64,000 nucleotides of DNA, from the NCBI GenBank assembly GCA_945957395.1, contig CAMFKE010000003.1:62001-126000 (forward strand), read 5' to 3'. Source of the stretch: an uncultured Opitutia bacterium. Lineage in GTDB: Bacteria; Verrucomicrobiota; Verrucomicrobiia; Opitutales; UBA953. Position numbers and translations under genes: made by a program. Below the pieces are notes generated by a model. The model ran no database searches, was not told the DNA's origin, and saw nothing but the letters and a program-made list of their open reading frames with translations. Numbering within the stretch: position 1 is the first letter of the stretch; each line of letters starts with the position of its first letter. Shown piece after piece: positions 46,544-62,338 of this stretch.

Positions 46544-48400
46544 TCAGTTGGAACCTACAGGCTTTGGTGCCCTTCGGCCAAAAGGCGTATTGCCGTCATC
46601 GGCAGCGCGATCGGACGGCGCGGGCGAGGTCGATTCCCGCATCAGGGCTCGAACTGTAGCTTCGGCCTGAAGCATGGCGGCAGACTTGGGCTCTTGCGAA
46701 TCGGTAGCCGTCGAAGCACCGTAGGTTGTCGTCATGCCGTTCGCCCTGAAGAGGCGCGCCAGCGATTCCTCTGCCGCTTTCAGCGTCTCTTGCTTCAACT
46801 GCGGATGCCGGGCCTTGTCACGCTCCCGCAGAAGCTCGGCCTCCGCGACTTTCAGACGATCAATCGACGCAGCGAGCGCTTCCGAATCCAACCGCAACCG
46901 TCGGACTGATTCTTCCGCCTTCTTCTTCTCGTCCGCCTTGGCGGCGGCTATGGTTCGCTCCTCCTCCTCGTACGAGTCGACACCCGTCATCGCCCATACG
47001 GCAGCCCACCGTTCATCCGGCAAAGGAACCCGCAGCGCCTCGGGCACCCACTTCGCGCTGTCCGCCGATACGACGGTCTGGTTGAGCCAGTCACCATAGT
47101 AACGAGGTGTCGAAAACTCACTCACGCCTTTTCCGCTCAGTACGGAATCAAAGAACTGACGCGCCAGTCGGTGACACCCTGCTGCGTCGTTGTGACCGAG
47201 ATTGGGGATGACCTTGTAGACCATGGGATAGCCCAGCTCCCGGCATTTTCCAAAAAACTTGGCGGAGCCGGCATAGCCGTAATCGCGCTCGCCAGTGGAA
47301 AGACACCAGAGCGCGGACTTGCCTGCCGGGGTGGGCCTGTCGAAGGAACTCGGGATATGCAGGTATACCGCGCGAAACAGCTCGGGCCTTCTCAGCGCCA
47401 GCCGCTTTGCATACTGGGCGGAGGCACTATAGCCCCACAGAAGCATGTCTCTTGGATCGAAGCCCTGCTCGGCCCCCAATTCCTTAACGCCTCGCACCCA
47501 GGCGGAGCTCACACGGTCGAACACGCGAGCCTGCTGCGCCGCCACTGCAGAGTCGAGCTGATCCCAATCGCGCGCACCGTCCCACACCTTGTGCGAACCC
47601 CAGCAGACCACGAGGAGCCGGCGACGCTCGGCGTATCGCAGCAGGTGATACACATCGTCGTGCGCCTCGTCCAACAACAGCCTGCGCTTCACGCCATCTA
47701 CACTTCCGGCGGTCAGGCACAGAGCGAGCACGCCCTTCGCCTCGCGCGGAGCGTCAACCGTGGCCGGCGTCTTGAGAAAGAGCGTGAGCTTAGGGTACTC
47801 GGGTAGGCCCGTGAACACCACCTTCTCCGCCAGGCGCAATGACTTGAGCTCGCGCGACACGGGTGCGCGTTCCGCGCTCATCGCAGCCTCCTTCTCGGGG
47901 AATATATAGTCTTGAATGACTCCTGCCGGGTAAACCTTCGCCACCGTCTCCTGAGCATCGCCAACCACGATGACGCAGCGCCAGTCACGCTCACGGAGCA
48001 CCGCCTCCGGCAAAACAAAACCGCAGGGCAACGGGCGCCCCTCGGTAGGGAAAAAAGCAGGCATCGATGCGGCGACGCCGTCAAACTCCCGAGGCTGCGG
48101 CGCGGCGAGTGAGGCGATAAGTCGCTTCGCATCATTGAAAAAATAGGCGCGCACAAAGCACCCCGGGGAGGGCACGGGAGACTGCGCACGAACCTCCACC
48201 TCCAAGTAGGGCCGGAAGTCTTTTTTCGTGCCGAGCAGAGGCTCGCGACTCACCGGAGCGCGCGCCACCACCTTCGCGTCGCCGACACTGAAGAACGTGG
48301 CCCCCGCATGCACGCAGGTCGGAAAGACGAGCGCACCGGCGAGCAGAACAAACGCGGACCGCCCTGCGCCCAAGAAAAAATATTCAGACTGAAGCATCAT
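46544..48400 (-). CDS. Exported alpha/beta hydrolase with C-terminal coiled coil
   Basis: 618 residues from the ATG at 48400 (a second ATG at 48397). The signal peptide is FVLLAGALVFPTCVHA. Residues about 45-190 form a beta-rich N-terminal domain. The alpha/beta hydrolase follows at about 200-460, with nucleophile elbow LLWGYSASAQYA and late His in NLGHNDAAGCH, similar in plan to PHB-depolymerase/feruloyl-esterase-like enzymes. A charged coiled coil is at about 490-570. The substrate is unknown. The start overlaps the MauE-like gene, so it is the downstream member of a five-gene minus-strand run in the accessory block. Confidence 0.75.
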   Translation of the reverse strand: MMLQSEYFFLGAGRSAFVLLAGALVFPTCVHAGATFFSVGDAKVVARAPVSREPLLGTKKDFRPYLEVEVRAQSPVPSPGCFVRAYFFNDAKRLIASLAAPQPREFDGVAASMPAFFPTEGRPLPCGFVLPEAVLRERDWRCVIVVGDAQETVAKVYPAGVIQDYIFPEKEAAMSAERAPVSRELKSLRLAEKVVFTGLPEYPKLTLFLKTPATVDAPREAKGVLALCLTAGSVDGVKRRLLLDEAHDDVYHLLRYAERRRLLVVCWGSHKVWDGARDWDQLDSAVAAQQARVFDRVSSAWVRGVKELGAEQGFDPRDMLLWGYSASAQYAKRLALRRPELFRAVYLHIPSSFDRPTPAGKSALWCLSTGERDYGYAGSAKFFGKCRELGYPMVYKVIPNLGHNDAAGCHRLARQFFDSVLSGKGVSEFSTPRYYGDWLNQTVVSADSAKWVPEALRVPLPDERWAAVWAMTGVDSYEEEERTIAAAKADEKKKAEESVRRLRLDSEALAASIDRLKVAEAELLRERDKARHPQLKQETLKAAEESLARLFRANGMTTTYGASTATDSQEPKSAAMLQAEATVRALMRESTSPAPSDRAADDGNTPFGRRAPKPVGSN

Positions 48401-48842
48401 TGGAAACAAAGGTTCCGTCGCCACGGGGCGCGGCGTGCGCGCGGTATGTTTCATGCACAAAAACATATGAGGCCAGAACACCCAACGCGCCCGCCCGCGC
48501 CAGCGAAACAGGCACCGAACTCTTCAGGTTTTCACCAAGACAGCCGCAATCGGCTGTGTCGCCCTGCGCGATACGCCACGCGAGGACTGAGAAAAACACC
48601 AGCGACAATGCGAGCGCGGCGAGGGCGCCGGCCGCGCAGTGCCGTCGCGTCATCAGGCAGACGCCGGCGGCCACCTCCATCCCCGGAAGCACAAGCGCGA
48701 CGGTGCCCGTGAGCGTCTCATCACTCAAGGCATACGAGGCCACACTCGTCGCGAAGTGAGCGCCGTCGAAAATCTTCATCATGCCCGAGACAAGAAACAC
48801 CGCCCCGACCAAGCGGGCCGCTGCGACAGGCAAACGACTCAT
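48384..48842 (-). CDS. MauE/DoxX-like membrane protein
   Basis: 152 residues with four hydrophobic helices. LVGAVFLVSGMMKIFDGAHFATSVASY, LPGMEVAAGVCLM and the pair DCGCLGENL are typical of the MauE/DoxX group, in which the Cys pair is linked to disulfide or redox chemistry. It starts within the rhodanese stop (4-base overlap) and overlaps the hydrolase start by 17 bases. Next to a rhodanese, a thiol- or sulfur-redox role in the envelope is plausible. Confidence 0.8.
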   Translation of the reverse strand: MSRLPVAAARLVGAVFLVSGMMKIFDGAHFATSVASYALSDETLTGTVALVLPGMEVAAGVCLMTRRHCAAGALAALALSLVFFSVLAWRIAQGDTADCGCLGENLKSSVPVSLARAGALGVLASYVFVHETYRAHAAPRGDGTFVSNDASV

Positions 48843-49351
48843 GGCGACACCTCCGACGGCAGGCCTGATTCGCGCCACAGCTTCCAGCCCCCGGCAAACA
48901 CGCGCACGTCCTTGCACCCACGCGACAACAGCGCGCGGGCCACGGAGCCGGCGTTGTCGCAGTTCGCGGAGGCGCAGTATACGACGAGCGTCTCCGCCGC
49001 CTCCAACTGCGCCCGGTTCTTCGCCCACGCGGCATCCGTGGCGTCGTGCGGCAGGGACACTGCGCCGGGCACATGTCCCTCCGCATACATCGTTGCGTAG
49101 CGCGCGTCCACCGCGAGCGCTCTGCCGGTGGCCAGCGCAAAGCGAAACTCCTCCAGTGTCGCAGCAGTCACTCCCGCCGGCAGAGCTGACGCCACGGAGG
49201 TATCGGAGTGAGCGCGCCAGACAAGCGGCAGCGGCCGGGCCGAGATCGCGTTGACGAACACGCCCAGCAGCGAACCGGCCGCGAGCACCGCGCACGCATG
49301 AGAAGTATGACGCCGAAGGGCCGGCCGACCGTCGATTTCAGCGTCGCTCAT
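48839..49351 (-). CDS. Rhodanese-domain protein with N-terminal membrane segment
   Basis: 170 residues: one hydrophobic segment at about 16-38 (signal anchor), then a rhodanese homology domain with DARYATMYAEGHVPGAVSLP and the active-site loop VVYCASANCDNAGSVARALL (catalytic Cys). The loop CASANCD is longer than the six-residue loop of classical thiosulfate sulfurtransferases. It is coupled by 4-base overlaps to the O-antigen-ligase-like gene upstream and the MauE-like gene downstream. Confidence 0.86.
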   Translation of the reverse strand: MSDAEIDGRPALRRHTSHACAVLAAGSLLGVFVNAISARPLPLVWRAHSDTSVASALPAGVTAATLEEFRFALATGRALAVDARYATMYAEGHVPGAVSLPHDATDAAWAKNRAQLEAAETLVVYCASANCDNAGSVARALLSRGCKDVRVFAGGWKLWRESGLPSEVSP

Positions 49352-50685
49352 GGCACGACATACCGGGGCCAGTCGGAAAGATAGCCCGATTCGCCTTCCA
49401 CCACGCTGACACGCGCGACGCGCTCCCAGGCGGCGCGGCCCGGCTTGCGCGCGAATTCGCCGTAGATTACGCGCACCGCTCCGGCGTACCCGGCTGGCAG
49501 GAGCTCGTCCGGCGCACCCTCGGGATTGATGAGCACAAGCACAGCCGGCGCATCATCCCCCGTGAGGCGCGCACCCGGGAAACGCACGAGCGTATCCGCC
49601 CGCAGGCCCGTGACCGGTCGCCCGGACGCGTCGGGCCACAGCGTCGTGGGCCGGCCCGCGATAACAGGGAAACACTCGCGCCACTCGCGCGGCGTGGGCC
49701 CGCCCTCGCCTGGCATCGCCCGGATCTCAAGCAAGCCCGGAAGTTCTCCGGCTATCGCGACGCGCGAGGCCCCGCGACGAATCTCGCCGCCACACACGAG
49801 GTTCACTCCCGCGACAAGCGCGACCGAGGTAAGGAGCGCCCCGGCGGCGCCCTTCACACCGGTTAACGCGGCGGGAGAAATTTCAAAACGGCCCTTCTCA
49901 GACGTGAGCGCAAGGCGTACGAGCGCGTACAGTGCGGTCGCGACGGTCAACCCGAGCACGGCGCGCGATTCCGCGACATCGGAGAACTGCCAGGCCGCCG
50001 CCTGCCCCGCGAGCGCGCCGAGCGCGGCGGCCTCGCGCGTGCGCCGCGCGTGCGACCAGGATGCAAGCAAGGCGCCGATCCAAGAGAACAAGTACAGCGT
50101 GCGCGCGAGATTTCCATGCTCCGCGAGGAACGTGAGGTGCGAGCTCACCAACACGCGGTACGGCTGCGAATGCGCCGGGTTCTGGTACCACCGTCCATAC
50201 TCCGGGCCCGCCCGCCCCTCTCCCCACCCGTCGGGCGCGTCCGCGATCATCGCCGGAGCCGCGCGCCAAAGGCTTAGACGGTTCGCGATGGACGCGTCGC
50301 CCGCCGCGTAGGCCGGCTCCATACGCCGCAGCGCGCCCACCCGGCCGGCGACGAAAACGCATGCAAGCACCGCGAGCGACACGGAGAGCAACCGCCCGCG
50401 TGGCCACGGTCGCGGCGTGTACGCGGCGAGAACGCCCAAAGCCAGGAGCGCCCCCACCACGCCGCCTCGCGACTCGGTGAGCAGCAGGCAGACGCCCAGC
50501 GCCGCGCAGGCGGCGAGGCCGGCGGCGAACAGCGCGGTGCGGGCGTGAGCACCGCAGACGCGACGCATCGCATGGGCGACCACGCCCCACACGAGGGGCA
50601 GGAGCAGGGCGATGAGCGCACCCGTCTTGTTCGGGTTGCCCAGCCCCCAGTCGAGCCGCCCCGCGGCGGCCAGTATCATTGGCAT
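49348..50685 (-). CDS. O-antigen ligase/polymerase-like membrane protein, probably N-terminally shortened
   Basis: 445 residues, many hydrophobic helices up to about residue 290, then a soluble C-terminal domain. The motif LGNPNKTGALIALLLPL and a periplasmic-loop region (GRAGPEYGRWYQNP...SSHLTFLAEHGNLA) are typical of the Wzy/WaaL/O-antigen ligase superfamily. GNPN normally occurs after four or five helices but is at residue 17 here, and an in-frame stop lies a few codons upstream. The protein therefore seems to lack its first helices, or starts unusually late. Linked to rhodanese and MauE-like genes by overlaps. Confidence 0.7.
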   Translation of the reverse strand: MPMILAAAGRLDWGLGNPNKTGALIALLLPLVWGVVAHAMRRVCGAHARTALFAAGLAACAALGVCLLLTESRGGVVGALLALGVLAAYTPRPWPRGRLLSVSLAVLACVFVAGRVGALRRMEPAYAAGDASIANRLSLWRAAPAMIADAPDGWGEGRAGPEYGRWYQNPAHSQPYRVLVSSHLTFLAEHGNLARTLYLFSWIGALLASWSHARRTREAAALGALAGQAAAWQFSDVAESRAVLGLTVATALYALVRLALTSEKGRFEISPAALTGVKGAAGALLTSVALVAGVNLVCGGEIRRGASRVAIAGELPGLLEIRAMPGEGGPTPREWRECFPVIAGRPTTLWPDASGRPVTGLRADTLVRFPGARLTGDDAPAVLVLINPEGAPDELLPAGYAGAVRVIYGEFARKPGRAAWERVARVSVVEGESGYLSDWPRYVVP

Positions 50686-50811: not shown

Positions 50812-51666
50812 TCAGTTCTTCGGTTCCTTCGCGCGCGTGGTTTTGCGCCAGAGGGCCGCCGTCTCCTCGTCCGGCAGCCAGGCGGTGACCTGGCCCGGGG
50901 CGTCCTCCGGCATGACGAAGCGCACGAGCACCCCGCACTCCGGCGGATTGTCGCCGGAGCACGGCACGGGCGCCGAAAGTCCCTTTTCGCGCAGGCGCAG
51001 CACGCCCAGCATGAAGCGCTGCGCGAGCGCGCGGCCAGCAGGCGTCACCTCGTGCCCGCTATCGGGAATCTCGGCCCAGCACACGGGAAGCCCATTGCGG
51101 CGGCAGGCCAGGAAATAGTCCGCGCTCGCCGGGCGCCTCGGGTCTTTCGCGCCGCACAGAATGAGCCCGGGCGGATAAGTCACGGTGGGGGTTCGGTTTT
51201 CGGTGCCCGGCGCTGCGGGAGCGCCGATTGCGGAAGCCGCCCGGCCGCTCGGAACCTCGGGCGCCGGCCCCCTCGCGACACTTTTTCCTTTTTCGTTCCC
51301 ACTTTTGAGTTTCGGCGCCGGCGGGTCGTCCCACCAGCCGGCGGAATAAGCGCACCACACGAGCACACGCTCCGGGTGACTATGCACAAACCGGTGCGTG
51401 AAGTGCGCGCCGCCCGAGTACCCGAACATCGCCAGCCGGAAGTCTTTCCCGTGCCGCTGGCCCAGCTCCCGCACGAGCCTCTCATGCGAACCCGATTCGG
51501 GGTAATAGTAACCCTGCCTTGAGTCCGCAGAGAGAAGCTCGTCCGGCGACCGGTAGTTCAGCCCCTCCTCCTTCAGCCGCCCGGCCCGCGCCAACTCGTG
51601 CCAGCCGGGCTGGTCGAACCACGCCCGCCCGTCTCCATTTTGCCCGGGACAGAGGAGAAGCACCAT
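50812..51666 (-). CDS. Alpha/beta hydrolase, N-terminus likely truncated
   Basis: 284 residues, starting immediately with a core beta-strand (MVLLLCPGQNGDGRAWF) and no signal peptide. The nucleophile elbow is AMFGYSGGAHFTHRF and the catalytic His region IPDSGHEVTPAGRAL. It resembles the hydrolase part of the 46544-48400 protein. A low-complexity insertion (KSGNEKGKSVARG...) interrupts it near residue 145. The missing leader peptide and the abrupt junction with the AT-richer gene at 51670 suggest the 5' end was lost at a recombination joint. Confidence 0.65.
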   Translation of the reverse strand: MVLLLCPGQNGDGRAWFDQPGWHELARAGRLKEEGLNYRSPDELLSADSRQGYYYPESGSHERLVRELGQRHGKDFRLAMFGYSGGAHFTHRFVHSHPERVLVWCAYSAGWWDDPPAPKLKSGNEKGKSVARGPAPEVPSGRAASAIGAPAAPGTENRTPTVTYPPGLILCGAKDPRRPASADYFLACRRNGLPVCWAEIPDSGHEVTPAGRALAQRFMLGVLRLREKGLSAPVPCSGDNPPECGVLVRFVMPEDAPGQVTAWLPDEETAALWRKTTRAKEPKN

Positions 51667-51669
51667 GGG

Positions 51670-52473
51670 CTAAATAAGCCGGATGGTTGTCGAACCAGTC
51701 CAACGAAGCCAAGTACCATATATCGTTCGACTCTCTACACCTGCACCAACATCCAGGTAGAGGGAGGAGTCTTGGAGCGATCCGCCATAAATAACGGGGT
51801 CATACCCCCATCGAGCTTCAACCGTATATCTGGCCGTTGTTTTAAACACCATCGCGGTCCAAACGTAGGTTTCAGCATTGGCAAAACGATAACCCGCAGT
51901 CGCCGTAACCTGTACGCCAACGGAAGCATCAACCGGGACATCAGTGTACCCCACCGTGGTCGTTGCGGAGGCTGAGCCGGAAGGCGTGCATCCTCCCCTA
52001 TAAATCAGCTGCGTTTTCACAGGCGTCGTTGTTACCGCCGCAAACCCGGAAATAGTTGCGCACCAAGGATGCAGTGAAGTCCCCCCGGAAACATCATATG
52101 CGATATCAATGGAACCGCTGCCGAGATTGATGGTCGCATTAGCATTCTCCCAATCCGTCATCTTCTCGACCTTGCCATTGCAGCACTCTTCCCAAGTCAC
52201 CTCTTTCCCCGTTATAGAGCCCGAAGGGCTTGTAAAATCAAACTTTAACTTATACCTATCAACAGAGAGCGCGCAAATCCGTTTAGTGGCCACCTCTGCC
52301 ACATCCTTTAAATCCTTGTACAGATTAGCATCCTTCCGTATATAACCCCCGTCCAGCTTAACAGCATACTGCGTCCTCTCGGCCTTATTGCAGCACACCA
52401 TCTTAGTACCTGATTCGCCCGCACCATGAAGAGCGCAGACAGGCGCAAGCGCCAATAAAAAGATTCTTTTCAT
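51670..52473 (-). CDS. Small exported protein, unknown (last gene of secreted operon)
   Basis: 267 residues from the ATG at 52473. The signal peptide is RIFLLALAPVCALHGAG. The mature chain has a Cys pair (MVCCNKAERTQ, WEECCNGK), is beta-rich with many Thr/Ser/Gly, and ends in strands typical of a beta-sandwich (GYRFANAETYVWTAMVF, RTIYGTWLRWTGSTTIRLI). No family is recognised. It starts one base after the previous stop. Base composition is clearly more AT-rich than the core genome. Confidence 0.7.
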   Translation of the reverse strand: MKRIFLLALAPVCALHGAGESGTKMVCCNKAERTQYAVKLDGGYIRKDANLYKDLKDVAEVATKRICALSVDRYKLKFDFTSPSGSITGKEVTWEECCNGKVEKMTDWENANATINLGSGSIDIAYDVSGGTSLHPWCATISGFAAVTTTPVKTQLIYRGGCTPSGSASATTTVGYTDVPVDASVGVQVTATAGYRFANAETYVWTAMVFKTTARYTVEARWGYDPVIYGGSLQDSSLYLDVGAGVESRTIYGTWLRWTGSTTIRLI

Positions 52474-52474
52474 T

Positions 52475-53266
52475 TCAGTTTCCAATGTAGGTGATTTCCG
52501 GGGCCTGAAGCTGGCCTTTGAGAACACGGCCAAAGTATTCTCCGAAGTAAACAGGAGAGGTCCCATGCAGCTCGCGCGTCATCGAATAGTGTTTCCACCG
52601 ATTCTCATCCCATTTGTAGGCATCGCACCAATACTGACCACCTGGTGTATCCAAAAACAACGCCCTTACGACGACCATAAGAAAACGCCCGTCCCTCGTA
52701 TCAATACGAAAAGCACACACCTCGCTCTTGGCAACCTTAGTAAATTCAGGGCCCGCGCTTTTCACAAGCCCAACAAAGTCTGCTTCACTCTTAAAGCAGC
52801 CTTGTCCGCGATGTTCACTTTCAGCATGCAACATCGCCAAAGACTCCTTATAATCCATCAAGCCTGTCGCAAAAACGCCCATGCTAAACGCAACAGCTCT
52901 TCCGTACGGGGACTTCAAATCCGTTGTTTTCTTAAATTCTTCCGCCGAACCGAGCCGGCTTGCATCAAATTTAAGCGAAGAACCTTGCCCATGATAATAT
53001 GTCTTCAAGTAAGTGCGCAAGGGATCCTTCTTTGTTCCTTTTCCATATAGCGAAGCTTCCAGCATCTTAAGCTGCCTTGAAATCTTTTCATCAAAGACAA
53101 TATGGCATGGCTTACCGGGGAAATCATCCCCTTCTATTTTCGGAGGTAGTGCCGACTCGTGGTCGGCCTTGATCTCAGTTTTAAGCGTCGTTTCTACGGC
53201 ACCGGCAATCGGATGCATGCAGAGTGCGCTGAACACGAGAAGCGCGAAGGATTTAGGGTTTCTCAT
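52475..53266 (-). CDS. Exported protein, unknown
   Basis: 263 residues with a signal peptide (FALLVFSALCMHPIAGAVE). The mature part has several Cys, a helical middle (LKSPYGRAVAFSMGVFATGLMDYKESLAML) and a C-terminal half that reads like a small globular domain (RDGRFLMVVVRALFLDTPGGQYWCDAYKWDENRW), a pattern seen in SnoaL/lumazine-like or DUF secreted domains but not assignable. It lies five bases after the YD-repeat gene and one base before the next gene, so it is one transcription unit with low GC content. Confidence 0.7.
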   Translation of the reverse strand: MRNPKSFALLVFSALCMHPIAGAVETTLKTEIKADHESALPPKIEGDDFPGKPCHIVFDEKISRQLKMLEASLYGKGTKKDPLRTYLKTYYHGQGSSLKFDASRLGSAEEFKKTTDLKSPYGRAVAFSMGVFATGLMDYKESLAMLHAESEHRGQGCFKSEADFVGLVKSAGPEFTKVAKSEVCAFRIDTRDGRFLMVVVRALFLDTPGGQYWCDAYKWDENRWKHYSMTRELHGTSPVYFGEYFGRVLKGQLQAPEITYIGN

Positions 53267-53271
53267 TTCTA

Positions 53272-54810
53272 CTAGTTTTTGGTTTCAAAAAGCTTGCGCT
53301 CAAGCGCGCTAAAGTCGTCGTAAGAAAAGCCGTGGCCGGCTATCTCCAAGTAGACAGGGGGTGATGGCAGGCTGATAACAACCTTTGGCTTGTCGCTCGG
53401 GATATCAAAATGCACCACCAGATTCAAATGATCAGTTGAACCTACATTTACACCGGAAGGCATTTTCCCGGCAACTTTCTTCATGATATAATCAAATGTG
53501 GAAGACCCTTTGTTAATCCTTACGCTGGTGCTAACAAGCTTTCCACGAACTGAAAGAACGACGCGCACACTCCCATCGGCGGCATAACTTGTAAATTCTT
53601 CCGTATCCCCATGGGAGAACTCAACGGCCCTACCCTTATCATCATATCGAGTCCTGGATTCAACACCCCTCATGAACACATAGATGCAATTCCCCTTGGA
53701 ATCGTAATCATACTTCTCAACCAGACGCTCCGCGCCACCTTCGAGAACCGAAACAGAGCGAACAACCCCCGCCAACGGACCTGTTACAACTCTTCGAGTC
53801 ACTTTCGTGACACCGTCATCATCTGTTTTAGTCAGGACCCCGGCGCCAATGTCATTATAAAAACGCATAGTGGCTCCATCCGGTTTAACCAACTTAAACT
53901 CAGCGCCGCCAAAATTACCCGGATGAGGGATGATACCGTAGGCAATTTCGCCGACGGAAAGAACCATGCGAGAAGACGGGTCCCATCGAACAACAGGCTG
54001 TGCTGAAAACGCCACACATGCAGGATCCTTCCTATACTCGAAGGACAAAGAGCCACCGTCCGAGAATGCTATCTCAGCAAGCGACATCAACTCCACCCAC
54101 TTGCCATTGGAACTCAAAGCAGGAGCCAACGAATATCGGCAGGTGGCTAGCGCCCCGCCTGAGGGACGATAACTAGCCAAGCGGCCTGTGTCATCATACT
54201 CAAATGAAACCAAGGGTGTGATATTATTCAACTTAAGTTCCGATACATTACCTTTGGGGTTTCTTAACAGCGTGTAGGAGCGACCATCCACTGCGACTTC
54301 AGCCAACCTCCCTTTGCCATCAAAGACGAGCCTGTCACCACAGGAGGAACTGATTCGAACGATCTTGTTTGAATCCTGCGTACCCAGCCAGCCCGAGCCT
54401 TCCAGTCGACGGGGAAACTGCTCCCTTCCATTGGCCATGCGTCGAGTGATTCGCAGTTTCTGCGAATATCCCTCAGGAGTGACCATCACTAACTCATCGT
54501 GCCCCGCAGGGGTGCACCTGGACTCCAGTAGCGGAACAAACCACCCGGCGCCCAAGGGGCCGGGTGAATCATCGGCAGTGATTCGGGTAGTCCAGTATGC
54601 GTGCAAGGGAAGAGCATCCACCTCTCCACCGAGAGACTTTCCCGGCAATGCAAGGGAGGCAAGCGGCTGATGAAGCCAAACAAAACCCTCAATATCCACT
54701 GCGGGAAACGGGCCTCCCACAGGAACCCTAAGGCTCAGGGAGCAAGCCGCATGCACAGCGCAGGAAATGAAAAGCGAAGCTGCAATAGCAGCTCGTTTAA
54801 AAACACTCAT
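53272..54810 (-). CDS. Exported YD/RHS-repeat protein
   Basis: 512 residues from the ATG at 54810 with a signal peptide (AAIAASLFISCAVHAAC). It begins like the N-terminal shell of RHS proteins (LSLRVPVGGPFPAVDIEGFVW, GPLGAGWFVPLLESRC) and has YD repeats (FEYDDTGRLASYRPSGG, YDSKGNCIYVFMRGVESRTRYDDKGRAVEF). It is far shorter than toxin-delivering RHS proteins (over 1200) and shows no PxxxxDPxGL-type core-end motif or toxin domain. The last 90 residues are unlike repeats. It is the main gene of an AT-richer four-gene unit of exported proteins, possibly a surface or secreted complex. Confidence 0.8.
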   Translation of the reverse strand: MSVFKRAAIAASLFISCAVHAACSLSLRVPVGGPFPAVDIEGFVWLHQPLASLALPGKSLGGEVDALPLHAYWTTRITADDSPGPLGAGWFVPLLESRCTPAGHDELVMVTPEGYSQKLRITRRMANGREQFPRRLEGSGWLGTQDSNKIVRISSSCGDRLVFDGKGRLAEVAVDGRSYTLLRNPKGNVSELKLNNITPLVSFEYDDTGRLASYRPSGGALATCRYSLAPALSSNGKWVELMSLAEIAFSDGGSLSFEYRKDPACVAFSAQPVVRWDPSSRMVLSVGEIAYGIIPHPGNFGGAEFKLVKPDGATMRFYNDIGAGVLTKTDDDGVTKVTRRVVTGPLAGVVRSVSVLEGGAERLVEKYDYDSKGNCIYVFMRGVESRTRYDDKGRAVEFSHGDTEEFTSYAADGSVRVVLSVRGKLVSTSVRINKGSSTFDYIMKKVAGKMPSGVNVGSTDHLNLVVHFDIPSDKPKVVISLPSPPVYLEIAGHGFSYDDFSALERKLFETKN

Positions 54811-54835
54811 AAGCCCCGACGCGCTTGAAGGGAAA

Positions 54836-54973
54836 TTATTCTCCAGGATTGGTAGGCGGCTTAGGGTCGTCACAGGGATGCGTCGGAACAGGCGGCGTGC
54901 CAGTTGCCGCAGAAACGGAGGAGCATAAAGCGACCACCGACAGGAGGACCAAGAGGATTACGGGCGTTTTCAT
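54836..54973 (-). CDS. Very small secreted peptide
   Basis: 45 residues: a strong signal peptide (MKTPVILLVLLSVVALCSSVSA) and a mature part of about 23 residues, Pro/Thr-rich with one Cys, ending in KPPTNPGE. It is the first gene of the minus-strand unit leading to the YD-repeat protein (25-base gap). The poly-G tract of its promoter region ends 27 bases before its ATG. Function unknown. Such peptides can be signals, bacteriocin-like or assembly factors, but nothing here decides. Confidence 0.6.
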   Translation of the reverse strand: MKTPVILLVLLSVVALCSSVSAATGTPPVPTHPCDDPKPPTNPGE

Positions 54974-54994
54974 GATTTCGATTGGATGTTCGCG

Positions 54995-55024
54995 GGAATA
55001 CCCCCCCCCCCCTTGGCAAATCAA
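54995..55024 (-). promoter_or_regulatory. Candidate phase-variable promoter with G12 spacer
   Basis: On the minus strand, TTGATT (55019-55024) and TATTCC (54995-55000) are separated by exactly 18 bases, 12 of which are an uninterrupted G run (C on the plus strand, 55001-55012). Slippage would change the spacer around the optimal 17. The boxes match consensus only 4/6 and 3/6. An alternative is TTAACA (55042-55047) with TTGATT as -10 and the tract in the leader. Confidence 0.4.
55001..55012. repeat. 12-bp homopolymer (C on plus strand)
   Basis: Twelve identical bases, the longest homopolymer I noticed in the window, placed between a possible promoter and the first gene of the secreted operon. 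Confidence 0.95.
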
Positions 55025-55146
55025 GCAAATTCTTTGCCGTATGTTAAAAACCTACGACAACAAACTTTGCACGCTTTTCAACAGGCGAAGATGTAAGCCC
55101 AATCCGCCGCAAGAAAGCTTCGCCAGCACTGTTCTGATTCGAGCAC

Positions 55147-61927: not shown

Positions 61928-62338
61928 ATGTCCGTCCGCATCGACTCCACCTACCTGGGCGACCTTCGCTTCGAATCCGTCCACGGCCCCTCCAAGGTCA
62001 AACTCATCACCGACGCCCCCGTGGACAACCATGGCAAAGGCGAATCCTTCTCCCCGACAGACCTCGTGGCCACCGCCCTGGTGAACTGCATGGGCACGCT
62101 CATGGGTATCAAGGCCAAGGGGCTCGGGCTGGACCTCGCCGGCATGACCTTCTCCGTGGAAAAAGTCATGAGCGCCGACGCGCCGCGCCGCATCGTGGCC
62201 CTGCCCATCACGGTCACCGTCACCGTCCCCACAACCGAGGACCAACGCCGCTCCCTCATGGCCGCCGCCGACACCTGCCCGGTCGCCAAGTCCATCCGCG
62301 CCGACATCGAGCGCCCCGTGGTCTGGAACTGGGCCTGA
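61928..62338 (+). CDS. OsmC-family peroxiredoxin-like protein
   Basis: 136 residues. The two redox cysteines of OsmC/Ohr-type thiol peroxidases are present, in VNCMGTLMGI (about residue 55) and DTCPVAKSI (about 117). SPTDLVATALVNCMGT is the YhfA/OsmC-like signature. It is likely to reduce organic hydroperoxides or bind small thiol substrates, giving oxidative protection to an anaerobic metabolism. Terminated by a strong bidirectional hairpin. Confidence 0.92.
   Translation: MSVRIDSTYLGDLRFESVHGPSKVKLITDAPVDNHGKGESFSPTDLVATALVNCMGTLMGIKAKGLGLDLAGMTFSVEKVMSADAPRRIVALPITVTVTVPTTEDQRRSLMAAADTCPVAKSIRADIERPVVWNWA

Follow-up and report, generated by a model that had tools for sequence, protein, structure and literature searches.

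RHS/YD proteins are known either as closed toxin cocoons or as scaffolds for teneurin adhesion, and polymorphic RHS toxins deliver toxic cargo against neighbouring cells. Here we describe four genes (g1 to g4, together called the cassette) from an uncultured Opitutia bacterium of the Verrucomicrobiota (GenBank assembly GCA_945957395.1). They lie in a window of 64,000 nucleotides (nt), corresponding to positions 62,001 to 126,000 of contig CAMFKE010000003.1; coordinates below refer to this window, and L numbers denote loci of relatives. Gene order and homology show that the four genes are not a free-standing island but make up the variable part of an envelope cluster conserved in Verrucomicrobiota. 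The second cassette gene is predicted to encode an open half-shell of the RHS type. We tentatively favour an exported surface-display cassette, consisting of a fixed half-shell, a peptide and variable cargo, with a possible role in adhesion or cell-cell recognition. The RHS fold is known; what is apparently new is its use in an exported half-shell that stands free, has its own tiny peptide and interchangeable cargo, and is accompanied by a fixed set of envelope genes. No published account of the cassette was found in the open-access literature (subscription papers were not covered), in line with a preliminary description of this DNA that had taken the module to be undescribed.

An exported RHS half-shell in a compact operon

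The genes are arranged in tandem, with a G tract ahead of the first:

54973-54836, (-) strand: g1, exported peptide of 45 amino acids (aa)
54810-53272, (-) strand: g2, exported YD/RHS half-shell of 512 aa
53266-52475, (-) strand: g3, exported orphan of 263 aa in the variable-partner position
52473-51670, (-) strand: g4, exported orphan of 267 aa with CC pairs, in the variable-cargo position
55001-55012, (-) strand: 12-nt G tract, 27 nt upstream of the g1 start

All four open reading frames (ORFs) are intact. The spacing of 25, 5 and 1 nt reported in the preliminary description is exact, and a hydrophobic N-terminal segment, the putative signal peptide that it assigned to each gene, can be read directly from the sequence of all four proteins. 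Searches of g1 to g4 against Pfam, NCBIfam and PHROGs returned no significant family. The closest approach for g2 was the RHS_repeat model PF05593, which remained below threshold (E 0.057; 14.3 bits as compared to a gathering score of 22).

The g2 structure was modelled from 13 sequences, comprising the window protein and its relatives. Confidence (predicted local distance difference test, pLDDT) was 70-92 across most of residues 30-400 and poor in the last 110 residues. The model has the RHS beta-barrel fold. The best matches in a Foldseek search were type VI secretion system (T6SS) Rhs cores, teneurins and Tc B-C proteins (E 3.7e-11 to the Rhs cores), and VIA-align Z scores were 17 for both RhsP and the S. 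bongori Rhs core, as compared to 16 for RhsA. The alignments are about 300-320 residues long, 301-319 for RhsP, and confined to the first third of each barrel (RhsA 299-686, for example), and the best of them stop near g2 residue 406-445, still inside this first third. The cork of RhsA spans residues 305-386; the 14 repeats of its C-terminal region close the other end (PMC8765631). Because only the cork and the first third of the barrel align when RhsA anatomy is taken as the reference, g2 is modelled, over residues of about 30-406, as an exported open half-shell. The earlier proposal of a YD/RHS-shell protein is thus upheld for the fold and not for a closed shell. We infer that closing the shell would take either a partner or another copy of it; two half-shell genes are present in some relatives (L047, L053, L097). 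The last 110 residues of g2 gave no family match, and no C-terminal core, autoprotease or toxin domain was detected there. Two Cys residues of g2, C23 and C157, are conserved.

Each of the closest described systems has features in common with g2 as well as differences from it. T6SS Rhs effectors (RhsA, RhsP, Tse15) have the barrel fold in common with g2, whose residues of about 30-406 match their cork and first third (VIA Z 15-17). These effectors are longer than 1000 aa, whereas g2, at 512 aa, has no C-terminal autoprotease region or toxin and carries its own Sec-type signal. Neither PAAR nor VgrG gave a Pfam match in g1 to g4 or in the flanking genes scanned, a scan that did not extend to T6SS genes at other sites of the genome. 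Tc B-C proteins (TcdB2-TccC3, YenBC) have a sheet of RHS repeats and a homologous cork, as g2 does, and TcB alone likewise forms only part of a shell. However, their structural scores to g2 are lower (Z about 10-12), only the RHS part aligns, with no beta-propeller part recognised, and no TcC or TcA partner is seen in the operon. In teneurins and a teneurin-like protein (Z about 14-15), an extracellular RHS/YD shell that encloses no toxin serves as a scaffold for adhesion. Their shell is complete and is accompanied by an NHL domain and further domains, whereas g2 is half a shell on its own, and peptide and cargo are encoded by genes separate from it.

These comparisons bear on a role in antagonism, in which the half-shell and peptide would chaperone a toxic cargo (g4 or g3) or deliver it to neighbouring cells, with the other gene providing immunity. 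Such a role would fit the fold held in common with T6SS Rhs effectors and Tc B-C, the high variability of the cargo, and the giant RHS proteins of L105 (1857 and at least 1268 aa), each of which is encoded after a peptide and a half-shell gene. However, no toxin domain was detected in g2, as the preliminary description had already stated, nor in g3, g4 or the cargo proteins scanned. The RHS C-terminal autoprotease region and a PAAR/VgrG partner are likewise missing from the genes scanned, the recognisable cargo domains are Ig/PKD-like, and every cassette member has its own predicted export signal. We consider antagonism unlikely.

A conserved envelope core beside the cassette

The cassette is contiguous with a GC-rich core, HydA-Wzy_C-rhodanese-MauE-HydB, that spans 51666-46544:

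50812-51666, (-) strand: HydA, alpha/beta hydrolase (esterase), without the N-terminal signal peptide of its relatives
49348-50685, (-) strand: Wzy_C/O-antigen-ligase-like membrane protein (Pfam and alignment)
48839-49351, (-) strand: rhodanese-like protein, exported in appearance (Pfam)
48384-48842, (-) strand: MauE-family redox-associated membrane protein (Pfam)
46544-48481, (-) strand: HydB, second alpha/beta hydrolase, extended at its C-terminus by a coiled-coil-like part (start codon uncertain)

This linked core is recognised in the window by gene order together with homology to L034, L036 and other loci. Alignments of the window proteins to those of relatives gave 33% for HydA, 27-29% for HydB and 32% for the O-antigen-ligase-like protein. 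In the order-wide search, the half-shell of Cerasicoccus loci was found between homologues of the window's GC-rich neighbours. Genomes of the same family carry divergent half-shells, followed at several loci by a Cys-rich exported protein, an exported protein of 310-350 aa, a C39-like peptidase and a DUF1573 protein. Named genomes were also scanned with HydA as the query, and the same cluster was found in records labelled Chthoniobacterales, Kiritimatiellae, Opitutales, Akkermansia and Puniceicoccaceae.

The association was quantified in a class sample of 384 genomes, in which the half-shell was present in 29, HydA in 43 and both in 27. HydA therefore occurs in 27 of the 29 half-shell genomes as compared to 16 of the 355 others (Fisher p 5e-28, a value that overstates independence because the genomes are related). 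HydB, the O-antigen-ligase-like protein, rhodanese, MauE and an ABC exporter often accompany HydA in the half-shell genomes. In the same sample, HydA is no more than 15 kb away at 34 of the 52 half-shell places. The compact, all-exported unit of the preliminary description is thus conserved beside these envelope genes in relatives; a random foreign island is ruled out by synteny and co-occurrence.

The core of relatives adds an ABC-2 exporter, a TPR protein, a PMT_2-like glycosyltransferase and an ICMT/PEMT-like methyltransferase. The window genome holds an ABC protein (52% identity) and a TPR protein at other sites. At L037:14469-17271, two core genes are paired, one with an ICMT/PEMT-like methyltransferase domain and the other PMT_2-like; pairs of similar appearance are found at L038:2777-5370 and L042:14765-17488.

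Base composition changes sharply at the cassette. A two-change-point fit delimits an AT-richer block at 51630-55140, with a GC content of 0.51 inside and 0.69 outside (log-likelihood gain 136), and no direct repeats of at least 10 nt flank it. The preliminary description had read this composition as foreign. The difference itself is confirmed, but a foreign island is not what it marks: at 33 of 35 loci the GC content of the half-shell gene is below that of the core genes (by 5 points on average), so that low GC is a general mark of the cassette. Cargo genes differ from core genes by a mean of 8 points across loci. In the window the difference is about 15 points, more than is usual. Attention had also been drawn to a poly-G start region. 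The 12-nt tract is present, but tracts of this kind are expected from base composition alone (1-2 of at least 10 nt per 64 kb; 15 of that length occur in the 2.79-Mb genome), and by itself the tract is therefore unremarkable. It is possibly a candidate phase-variation site.

In the window the cassette directly abuts HydA, and HydA is consequently without its first 35-40 residues, including the signal peptide. The HydA profile match begins at model position 36, about 35-40 N-terminal residues being missing as compared to relatives, and the TAG stop codon of g4 is located 3 nt before the HydA ATG and in frame with it (51666-51672). This arrangement is consistent with the cassette having replaced the 5' end of HydA. 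The cassette was probably exchanged or inserted within an ancestral cluster and did not land at a random site. Read-through of the g4 TAG, or a former g4-HydA fusion, could export HydA.

The same junction could be taken to mean that the cassette is functionless in the window genome, an AT-rich remnant of horizontal transfer that cut HydA short. The sharp composition change, the lost HydA signal peptide, the absence of DUF1573 and C39 matches (Pfam models), the orphan status of g3 and g4 and the presence of the cassette as a single copy in the genome would all agree with this. Four intact and tightly spaced ORFs, a g1-g2 arrangement as in relatives, a retained core and the AT-richness of the half-shell gene nearly throughout the loci compared argue the other way, and we regard a functionless remnant as very unlikely.

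A tiny Cys-tail peptide tied to half-shell genes

Half-shells are associated with a conserved group of tiny exported peptides, here called Cys-tail peptides, and the g1 product is one of them. Members are encoded by ORFs of 45-95 aa, with a signal or anchor segment, a short linker, a Cys and a low-complexity tail, for example CSSSSSSGGGE, CTPTPTPTPAE, CEPPSSPPPDTPPGG or CDDDDDNDE. The mature part of g1 is about 'ATGTPPVPTHPCDDPKPPTNPGE', and its tail is CDDPKPPTNPGE. Most tails at Opitutales-type loci close with a related motif of about the form D-x-M-P-x-E-L-G-E.

By fixed criteria, and with the window included, a Cys-tail peptide is encoded directly upstream of 27 of 44 half-shell genes and of none of the 412 control genes, which were other genes of at least 200 aa from the same loci. 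The criteria were fixed after examples had been seen, and because a few of the 44 loci are paralogues or come from related strains, there are fewer than 44 independent events. The contrast is very large despite these two limits. The g1-g2 pair of the window retains the arrangement of relatives. The possibility that the small genes are random neighbours in homologous loci, considered in the preliminary description, is thus set aside for g1, whereas g3 and g4 are linked to the cassette by their position. Pairing of the peptide Cys with a conserved half-shell Cys was also considered. It is weakened by a half-shell at L105 that is accompanied by a peptide and has no Cys, as well as by the occurrence of the two conserved Cys at loci lacking the peptide.

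Half-shell loci without the peptide mostly have either a downstream Cys-rich protein together with C39, or a radical SAM enzyme together with Tat-exported CPGG/Asp repeat proteins. The second type is found at L043:4427-9816, L050:1544-9082 and L104:7258-11858, where the half-shell gene is followed by a PapB/QhpD-like radical SAM/SPASM enzyme and by Tat-signal CPGG/Asp-rich Cys-repeat proteins of 350-390 aa. This arrangement looks like an undescribed cluster for a RiPP-like product (ribosomally synthesised and post-translationally modified peptide). In pairing such an enzyme with Cys-rich Tat-exported proteins, the three loci resemble radical SAM RiPP clusters of the PapB/SCIFF/QhpD type, although the scores of their enzymes fall short of the curated cut-offs set for the named NCBIfam models. 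The C39-like peptidases of L007, L009, L010, L011, L029, L048 and L049 are stand-alone proteins, exported or membrane-anchored and not ABC-fused, and in most of these loci a DUF1573-like protein follows.

The tiny peptide or the Cys-rich protein might instead be a RiPP-like product or signal, matured extracytoplasmically by the thiol, ligase and esterase functions of the core, with the half-shell as a binding or maturation scaffold. In favour of peptide maturation are the tie between peptide family and half-shell, the radical SAM loci in which repeat proteins replace the peptide, the C39-like peptidases at several loci and the methyltransferase in the core of relatives. However, the window genome has no C39 by the Pfam model, no radical SAM gene is seen beside its cassette, large cargo proteins co-occur, and the tails are of low complexity and variable (Ser, Pro-Thr and Asp-Ser runs), unlike a defined product. 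This explanation is, in our judgement, improbable.

Variable cargo

In relatives, the positional counterparts of g3 and g4 are very diverse, fast-changing exported proteins. Small Cys-rich proteins are among them, as are the following groups:

L037, L047, L098, L099: CC-motif cargo
L036, L091, L101, L107: second CC/Ig-like cargo group
L097, L100: PKD/Ig-like cargo
L105: giant RHS cargo

Several of these cargo proteins contain Big_2, Ig or PKD domains, which are typical of extracellular binding proteins. The two CC pairs of g4, MVCC and EECC, correspond to the paired Cys motifs noted earlier in one of the unrecognised proteins. The resemblance of g4 to CC-type cargo, in CC pairs and length only, is suggestive. 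Comparison of single g3 and g4 sequences with their positional counterparts by hhalign gave no support beyond a 15-residue motif, and it is gene position that suggests a functional tie of both proteins to the cassette. Several candidate identifications were rejected: the match of g4 to Pfam FST_N and matches to outer-membrane proteins of the PDB were below threshold, and one marginal foreign match of g4 among 273 genomes of the order is outside any comparable cluster and seems fortuitous. At L105:1-14207, giant RHS genes (1857 aa; at least 1268 aa) stand in tandem, each right after its own Cys-tail peptide and half-shell genes.

Proposed display at the cell surface

If the cassette serves surface display, the Sec pathway would take its proteins across the inner membrane. 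The Cys-containing parts would then be matured by the thiol chemistry of MauE and the rhodanese-like protein, and the ligase-like protein might attach a glycan to them. The half-shell would be the scaffold on which the peptide and the fast-evolving cargo (g4, with g3 as partner) are held or displayed at the cell surface, where they would serve adhesion or cell-cell recognition. The Ig, Big_2 and PKD domains of several cargo proteins would agree with this, as would the presence of YD repeat proteins, which may belong to another family, in the outer-membrane proteome of Akkermansia (PMC4960237). In the window genome, the cassette would have become joined onto HydA, with removal of the HydA signal peptide.

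Several observations weigh against surface display. The peptide is lacking at 17 of the 44 half-shells, and some half-shells have the radical SAM variant. Neither g3 nor g4 has a detectable homologue among the cassette proteins, g4 has no credible match across the 273 order genomes, and the single-sequence model of g4 is uninformative (pLDDT 34). No DUF1573 or C39 was found in the window genome with the Pfam models; both are present in many relatives, although not in all. Surface location, disulfides and glycosylation are suggested only by the company that the genes keep.

A more far-reaching proposal is that the envelope core (ABC exporter, ligase-like glycosylation, rhodanese/MauE and esterases) covalently matures the lone-Cys peptide, and that peptide and RHS half-shell together present interchangeable cargo. 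The cassette would then be a modular, teneurin-like recognition machine and a new kind of system, which we hold to be doubtful. If widespread exported half-shells do carry cargo and, in many cases, their own Cys-tail peptide, they would constitute a separate use of the RHS fold. The cassette would also provide a point of entry for experiments on the cell surface of Verrucomicrobiota (Akkermansia and Cerasicoccus among them), about which little is known. Annotation often omits ORFs of 45 to 65 residues, and yet a system can have its most conserved signature in such an ORF.

Two further observations concern the distribution of related genes. Cassette-type genes and HydA are found at L048 on a 3.2-kb contig labelled Candidatus Gastranaerophilales, which may be a piece of Verrucomicrobiota DNA that was mis-binned. 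Genes for short YD proteins of a second and more distant group are present at the G001 loci L031:7346-8650, L032:7426-8547 and L033:6504-8321; those of L031 and L033 come after genes for other exported-looking proteins.

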